Shown one piece after another: positions 15,813 through 16,098 of a stretch of DNA of 49,953 bases. Location of the stretch: the IMG/VR virus record IMGVR_UViG_3300047548_001418, positions 1-49,953 of that record, one strand, 5' to 3'. A program made the translations under genes and the position numbers. Each line of letters opens with the position of its first letter. The stretch's first letter is position 1. The notes under the pieces are model-generated. The model saw only the letters and a program-made list of their open reading frames with translations, was not told the origin of the DNA and ran no database searches. Origin of the DNA: a virus.

Positions 15813-16098
15813 TGGTGCTGCTTGTCGGATTCGAACTGACGACCTATCGCTTACCTTACTACTACAACTTTCGTTGCCAACTCTCGTTGTTTGTAGTCTG
15901 GACTATACCTTCATCATAGCATTTCTGCCTTAGATGCCCGCCATCTAGTCTCTACACGTTCCAAACATTTCTATTTGGCTTCGCTCGGTATTACCATTTT
16001 ACAGGCTTCACCGAATTTGACGGGTTCTACTCCTACCGTTTCCAGTAGGGCACTCGTATTATACAAGGCGATTGCTCTACCAACTGAGCTAAAGCAGC
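15813..16098 (-). tRNA. tRNA-Thr(UGU), interrupted by a group I intron
   Basis: Exons 16065-16098 and 15813-15854. Spliced, acceptor GCTGCTT/AAGCAGC, D-stem GCTC/GAGC, anticodon loop CTTGTAA, T-loop TTCGAAT, ACCA. The intron lies between 34 and 35. Confidence 0.9.
15855..16064 (-). ncRNA. Group I intron in tRNA-Thr (210 nt)
   Basis: P1 pairs CTTGT with ACGAG, with a U-G at the splice site. Core elements GGTAATACCGAGC, AGAGACTAGATGG and AAGGTATAGTCC are present, and the intron ends in GTAGTAAG exactly like its relative in tRNA-Met. No ORF inside. Confidence 0.92.

Follow-up and report, generated by a model that had tools for sequence, protein, structure and literature searches.

The window, meaning the whole stretch of DNA that was analysed, comprised 49,953 bases of IMG/VR virus record IMGVR_UViG_3300047548_001418. 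ARAGORN, run without introns, placed 27 tRNA genes in it, all on the minus strand, and its intron mode added two interrupted tRNAs. One of these calls was tRNA-Thr(tgt), interrupted at 34-35 by a 210-nt intron. The tRNA-Thr(UGU) gene with its intron occupies positions 15813..16098 (-): the 5' exon lies at 16065-16098, the 3' exon, CCA included, at 15813-15854, and the intron at 15855..16064, between U34 and G35. Joined by script, the exons gave a complete tRNA-Thr with the loop CUUGUAA and CCA. No listed open reading frame of at least 60 aa was located within the intron. Rfam model RF00028 (group I intron) matched 15875-16074(-) with 62.2 bits (E 1.8e-13; the gathering score of 50 was exceeded by both introns of the window), and covariation and the guide GAG, described below, point to the same class. 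ARAGORN and Rfam agreed with the sequence-only reading, which had placed a 210-base group I intron in tRNA-Thr at 34|35. The 3' boundary reads ...TAGTAAG|GTAAG, with the terminal G that was also a condition in threading. The boundary can be slid over a GTA repeat; the 34|35 register was chosen because in it the 5' splice site has a U and the intron ends in G. The Thr intron belongs to a known family of ribozymes, in a host where such introns have been little described.

The second interrupted gene (11576..11861, minus strand) was identified from sequence and threading as a CAU tRNA (Met, or Ile2 if lysidine-modified; below, the Met intron). Its 209-nt group I intron at 11619..11827 (-), between U33 and C34, was likewise without an internal reading frame, and was matched by RF00028 at 11641-11836(-) with 71.1 bits (E 3.9e-16). 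ARAGORN had called this gene as tRNA-Leu(taa) with an intron at 37-38, which was rejected after threading; position 33|34 was preferred, as it yields an intron with a terminal G and a tRNA with a 7-nt loop and a short variable arm. The RF00028 search of the whole record returned no further group I intron. The tRNA-Leu(UAA) gene at 12207..12291 (-) was called by ARAGORN without an intron; the isotype hosting the closest of the listed introns from other phages is thus empty in the window. On sequence grounds, both inserts are predicted to self-splice as group I introns.

Among the other tRNA calls, tRNA-Ile(tat) at 13351-13445 (-) had a long extra stretch in the variable region, and a call with a four-base anticodon (acca) was made at 13738-13812 (-). 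Elsewhere, the window carries an isocitrate lyase family gene (37418-38674, minus strand; Pfam ICL, E 2.7e-103) whose neighbours include ribonucleotide reductase and class II aldolase genes, adjacent AhpC/TSA peroxiredoxin and carboxymuconolactone-decarboxylase-family genes (28147-29300, minus strand), comparable to the bacterial AhpC/AhpD pair, and a TctC tricarboxylate receptor gene with a fatty acid desaturase gene (21648-25125, minus strand).

Structure, guide and insertion sites of the intron family

Relatives, taken from the matches listed for degenerate patterns, were threaded into tRNAs. Threading required that the intron follow a U and end in G, that the anticodon loop have 7 nt and that the stems be paired. 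The looser patterns had replaced an exact 36-nt one, built on the block shared by the two window introns, which gave zero matches in viral contigs. Threading succeeded for 114 of 252 cores. ARAGORN calls of Tyr(ata) and Phe(gaa) for several interrupted tRNAs were rejected, since threading required a U ahead of the intron and a terminal G; a threading as Phe(gaa) 33|34 was obtained for 17 bacterial introns.

For 39 diverse introns, 51 pairs were scored. Of the cells, 91.2% were paired, whereas shuffling gave 72.5% and sliding no more than 46.3%; the pair structure had been written from the window Thr intron, one of the sequences scored, which biases the count toward pairs formed. P1 was misaligned in the 39-row alignment and excluded from the pair count, and one P6 pair was mis-specified (0/39 paired). 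The P3-P9 core with the P3/P7 arrangement was present. P3 and P7 covaried with 100% of cells paired, double changes occurred at 6/6 pairs of P3, and P7 and P8 were 98-100% paired. The double changes in P3 would be hard to explain without the proposed structure.

In P1 of the Thr intron, the guide GAG pairs with C32-U33-U34, with a U.G pair at the splice site; the U was required by threading, so the U.G part is not independent evidence. The guide varied with the site: GAG in most 34|35 introns (Leu, Arg, Thr and Lys tRNAs), GG/GGG at 33|34 and GCAG at 35|36. Insertion in the family was found after U33, U34, U35 or U36. Anticodons starting with U were mostly interrupted at 34|35 and the CAU tRNA, in which base 34 is C, after U33 or U36. 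Introns of tRNA-Asn(GUU) were placed at U35 or U36, those of loci L062 and L304 being best read as Asn 36|37. Because tRNA-Arg(UCU) introns were found at both 33|34 and 34|35, the preference is a tendency and no strict rule. The different positions of the Thr (34|35) and Met (33|34) introns fit the need for U.G at the splice site, so that no special event is required to account for them.

Introns in tRNA-Thr(UGU) at 34|35, in the same register as in the window, were also found among the matches listed in virus contigs L073, L120 and L283 and in Massilia alkalitolerans (L372). Met(CAU) 33|34 introns among these matches comprised those of phage contigs L104=L263=L331 and L257=L341 and bacterial loci L360 and L412, and span at least two distinct phage lineages. 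Bacterial genomes contained many further tRNA introns of the family, Arg(CCU) 36|37 being the largest threaded class. As judged from these sequences, the family is large, sits after an anticodon-loop U in phage and bacterial tRNAs and has strong helix covariation.

Occupancy was patchy. Contig L341 carries a Met 33|34 intron (identical to that of L257) and a Leu intron with an empty tRNA-Thr; the window is the reverse, with Met and Thr filled and tRNA-Leu(UAA) empty. The Thr genes of the window and L341 are not close alleles. The intron-free allele of tRNA-Thr that the sequence-only reading had proposed to look for was found in L124 and many other contigs; in L124 it was 92% identical to the joined window exons. 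In L283 (IMGVR_UViG_2887915402_000002), the 3' side of the interrupted tRNA-Thr(UGU) lies ~40 nt from an integrase-like gene on the opposite strand, which suggests a provirus end at the interrupted tRNA. Outside tRNA genes, two Rfam group I introns that are unannotated in the record were noted in Pseudoalteromonas phage pYD6-A (L007, 1444-1691 and 2017-2273). Intron-like DNA was also seen between two genes annotated as capsid protein in Pelagibacter phage HTVC120P (L005, 2501-2619); judged by its sequence, an unannotated intron may interrupt this capsid gene.

Relationship between the two introns of the window

RF00028, sequence identity and threading all indicated that the Thr and Met introns are homologous group I introns at adjacent, different positions. 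The longest block identical between them, TCAAATTCGG...CCGAGC, was 38 nt, one more than the 37 first counted, and their last 10 nt (TAGTAGTAAG) were identical, as had been noted. From the block and the common 3' end, together with residence in one genome and practically the same length, a recent jump within the genome from one of the two tRNAs to the other had been proposed, with P1 adapting to the new exon. The comparison with other genomes makes such a jump very improbable. Identity between the two introns was 77.7% (157/202), and the identical block covers the P4-P5 core, which is conserved throughout the family. At least 20 introns of other phages matched the Thr intron better than the Met intron did, and ~40, among the matches listed, were closer to the Met intron than the Thr intron was. 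The best of the listed matches of the Thr intron were tRNA-Leu(UAA) introns (L134, 174/207; L341, 168/195); those of the Met intron were in tRNA-Leu of L029 (171/194) and at 33|34 in tRNA-Met of L257 (170/199). P1 had hardly been re-adapted to the Thr exon, as GAG on C32-U33-U34 is common to nearly all 34|35 introns in any tRNA.

In a tree of 177 introns, bacterial ones included, the Thr intron grouped with the tRNA-Leu(UAA) intron of L341 (98/73; 388/400 ultrafast bootstrap trees) and the Met intron with the tRNA-Met 33|34 intron of L257 (98/63; 389/400), the latter two inside a supported ten-row clade that excluded the Thr intron. The pairing of Thr and Met introns occurred in 0/400 ultrafast bootstrap trees, which stay near the best tree. 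In the AU test, sisterhood of the two was not rejected (p 0.148 and 0.289); recent transfer within the genome is therefore graded as unsupported rather than excluded. Identical insertion sites in relatives, which the sequence-only reading had named as evidence against its own proposal, were found for Thr 34|35 in three other virus contigs and for Met 33|34 in at least two lineages. Movement between tRNA genes, as a general property of the intron family, was borne out; a recent move between these two loci was not. The four phage Thr introns had been expected to form a single clade and did not do so in the best tree; one clade was not rejected (p 0.09).

Nuclease genes beside the interrupted tRNA genes

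A predicted free-standing HNH endonuclease gene at 15196..15798 (-) begins 14 nt past the 3' end of tRNA-Thr. Its product remained below the cut-off of Pfam HNH_3 and matched PHROG HNH endonucleases strongly (E 4.9e-24). Invariant residues of the family comprise the HNH and zinc ligands (H151, N159, N163, C132, C135, C168, C171 and H172). The AF2 model was confident (pLDDT 90.6); PDB matches were weak (best E 0.018), several of them to HNH domains.

HNH relatives were retrieved with the protein alone. Of 69 non-redundant loci in which a tRNA lay no more than 400 nt away, 62 had tRNA-Thr as a direct neighbour on one side of the gene or the other (null by isotype frequency: mean 12.4, maximum 26 in 20,000 draws); the loci were the best 80 of at least 590 matches, so this figure describes near relatives. 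The anticodon was UGU in 55 of 66 flanking Thr genes. Annotated tRNA-Thr genes adjoin the HNH homologue in Xanthomonas phage XbC2, Cronobacter phage GAP32, Salmonella phage MET_P1_137_112 and Enterococcus phage iF6; in Atu_ph07 and Synechococcus phage DSL-LC03 no annotated tRNA was found near the homologue. Most HNH-flanked tRNA-Thr genes (about 60) were intron-free, among them that of L124, with the homologue 76 nt downstream. An HNH homologue adjoined the Thr intron in the window, L073 and L120, that is, in 3/4 phage Thr introns. None was found near the Thr intron of L283 (2 kb of sequence covered, beside the integrase-like gene) or of Massilia L372. Locus L415, on a contig of a Clostridia assembly and found by intron pattern alone, has an intron in tRNA-Thr(UGU) at 36|37 and was, among the matches listed, the only bacterial intron locus with a homologue of this HNH gene, the intron being ~44 nt away. 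A second HNH gene (16256..16819, minus strand; Pfam HNH_5, E 6.5e-15) lies on the far side of the tRNA-Asn/tRNA-Thr pair; its homologues sit 28-81 nt before tRNA-Thr in L139, L209 and L341.

The CAU tRNA has a neighbour of another family, a predicted PD-(D/E)XK-like endonuclease gene 67 nt downstream (10756..11508, minus strand; PHROG E 7.3e-23). A PDB sequence search with its product returned no meaningful match to a solved structure and the predicted model was poor (pLDDT 66.6), so the fold assignment rests on the PHROG matches and on motifs, the PDF and E-x-K residues being invariant in the family. Near homologues lie 0-13 nt from tRNA-Met(CAU) in L134, L344, L345/L346 (near-copies), L347, L257 and L341, of which L257 and L341 have an intron-bearing tRNA-Met; more distant ones (L078, L079 and L099) adjoin other tRNAs. 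The CAU-tRNA intron and this gene look like a second, independent pair.

The HNH_2 endonuclease gene at 18451-18903 (-), recognised by its HNH_2 match, overlaps tRNA-Arg(acg) with its end. Its relatives sit 51-79 nt from intron-bearing tRNA-Arg(UCU) at ~20 loci, most of them chosen by the intron and several near-copies. HNH families of PHROGs were commoner beside interrupted than beside uninterrupted tRNAs: phrog_10822 was matched by 19/90 versus 6/90 flanking ORFs and phrog_14736 by 19/90 versus 3/90, counts that overlap between families. When endonuclease neighbours were counted in a union test with local profiles, the difference was not significant (26/90 versus 15/90; Fisher p 0.075). Weak endonuclease matches were also obtained for two nuclease-like genes near tRNAs, at 5405-6205 (-), which overlaps the start of tRNA-Pro(tgg), and at 3101-3946 (+).

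Spread of the introns and comparison with known systems

We consider collaborative homing, in which ORF-less tRNA introns are spread through tRNA-specific free-standing endonucleases, to be the best explanation of these arrangements and somewhat favour it. The Thr intron would be a short, self-splicing group I intron whose lineage resides in tRNA anticodon loops of large phages and bacteria and whose nearest relatives are probably the 34|35 introns of tRNA-Leu(UAA); a recent origin from the CAU tRNA is not envisaged. A move from Leu(UAA) to Thr would need almost no change, as bases 32-34 are identical. The intron would remove itself from the precursor and leave a normal tRNA-Thr(UGU), so that its presence would be tolerated by the phage. 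It lacks a gene for its own movement; mobility would come from the HNH nuclease, which would cut intron-free tRNA-Thr genes of co-infecting phages. Repair would then introduce the intron, either accompanied by the HNH gene or by itself, while the tRNA-Thr of the phage itself would be safe because the intron splits the cut site. The Thr intron and the adjoining HNH gene may thus have spread together. Several traits of such a system were present: an ORF-less intron, an adjoining nuclease gene tied to that tRNA, and empty alleles elsewhere. A wider proposal, which we put forward tentatively and hold to be somewhat less probable than not, is that phage tRNA arrays contain matched pairs of an isotype-addressed free-standing endonuclease and an ORF-less anticodon-loop intron, each nuclease cutting one tRNA gene in rivals while the intron shields the own copy and rides along, with the site set by which loop base is U.

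Several observations count against collaborative homing. Most HNH-flanked tRNA-Thr genes are without an intron, so the HNH family can do without one, and the model does not explain why phages with the HNH gene and an intron-free tRNA-Thr escape their own nuclease. The Thr introns of L283 and Massilia L372 have no HNH homologue nearby, and the union test remained at p 0.075. For the second pair, the PD-(D/E)XK homologues of L078, L079 and L099 stand beside other tRNAs. The same intron-free genes, about 60 in number, and the frequency of HNH genes beside phage tRNAs in general would suit an ordinary, self-spreading homing endonuclease of tRNA-Thr, with the intron as hitchhiker or coincidence. 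We regard this as a serious although rather unlikely alternative, because 3/4 phage Thr introns adjoin the HNH family, as does that of L415, which was found by intron pattern alone, and because the tRNA-Met intron shows the parallel arrangement with a different nuclease family. Turnover, with a free-standing gene taking the place of an intronic one, would be expected to give the same picture and is on record at other loci (PMC10448857).

Spread at the RNA level, by reverse splicing of the excised intron into guide-matching anticodon loops and subsequent copying into DNA, would explain why introns follow U33, U34, U35 or U36 and carry, in nearly all cases, a guide that matches, and why one intron clade spans several isotypes, the C-U-U target being present in many anticodon loops. 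It leaves the nuclease neighbours unexplained and is improbable as the main route; it could account for rare isotype jumps alongside homing. Old vertical inheritance within one phage lineage agrees with the recurrence of the same sites across several phages, yet the patchy presence speaks against it (Leu empty and Thr filled in the window, the reverse in L341), and the four phage Thr introns did not form one clade in the best tree, although one clade was not rejected (p 0.09). Its probability is very low, about that of the recent jump between the two tRNAs discussed above.

Introns in tRNA genes were found repeatedly among phages; their sites show a simple tendency, and the nucleases beside them each address one tRNA isotype. 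If the pairs cooperate, they offer naturally replicated cases in which to study how introns become partners of separate nucleases, and also bear on why phages keep interrupted tRNA genes. Since cultured phages have the HNH gene beside tRNA-Thr, the cutting step is open to laboratory test.

Group I introns of bacterial and plastid tRNAs (cyanobacterial tRNA-Leu UAA, Agrobacterium tRNA-Arg CCU and Azoarcus tRNA-Ile CAU) belong to subgroup IC3. Like the window introns, they are small, ORF-less group I introns of the anticodon loop, and bacterial tRNA-Arg(CCU) 36|37 and CAU 36|37 introns fell within the 177-intron tree. The window differs in its host, a phage, in the tRNA-Thr(UGU) 34|35 site and in the adjacent free-standing nuclease gene. 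I-SspI, a nuclease of the PD-(D/E)XK fold, is encoded inside the Synechocystis tRNA-fMet intron; it targets the anticodon region in a CAU tRNA, as the predicted product of 10756-11508 would, whereas the window gene lies outside the intron. In the literature searched, no paper on group I introns in phage tRNA genes was found, and we have moderate confidence that the novelty lies in the pairing of tRNA introns with isotype-specific nucleases.

In published cases of collaborative homing, nuclease cleavage of the intronless gene falls where the intron inserts, and self-cutting is blocked by the intron (PMC6083498, PMC3984707). Phage group I introns tend toward conserved protein-coding genes according to a 2014 review, which also cites an anticodon-specific endonuclease (PMC3984707). 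F-CphI with the psbA intron of cyanophage S-PM2 and the T3/T7-like phage case likewise combine an ORF-less group I intron with a nuclease gene beside the interrupted gene (PMC6083498, PMC3984707, PMC10448857). There, the genes are protein-coding and cleavage of the intronless gene was shown, whereas the window has tRNA genes, of which cleavage is predicted; the likeness drawn here is one of arrangement. SegB of T4/T6 is, like the predicted HNH nuclease of the window, a free-standing phage homing endonuclease among tRNA genes (PMC2988022, PMC13096335), and demonstrates that such nucleases can cut within phage tRNA genes (PMC13096335). SegB is a GIY-YIG nuclease tied to tRNA arrays, whereas the HNH and PD-(D/E)XK-like nucleases of the window are each tied to one isotype, and the tRNAs they appear to address carry introns.
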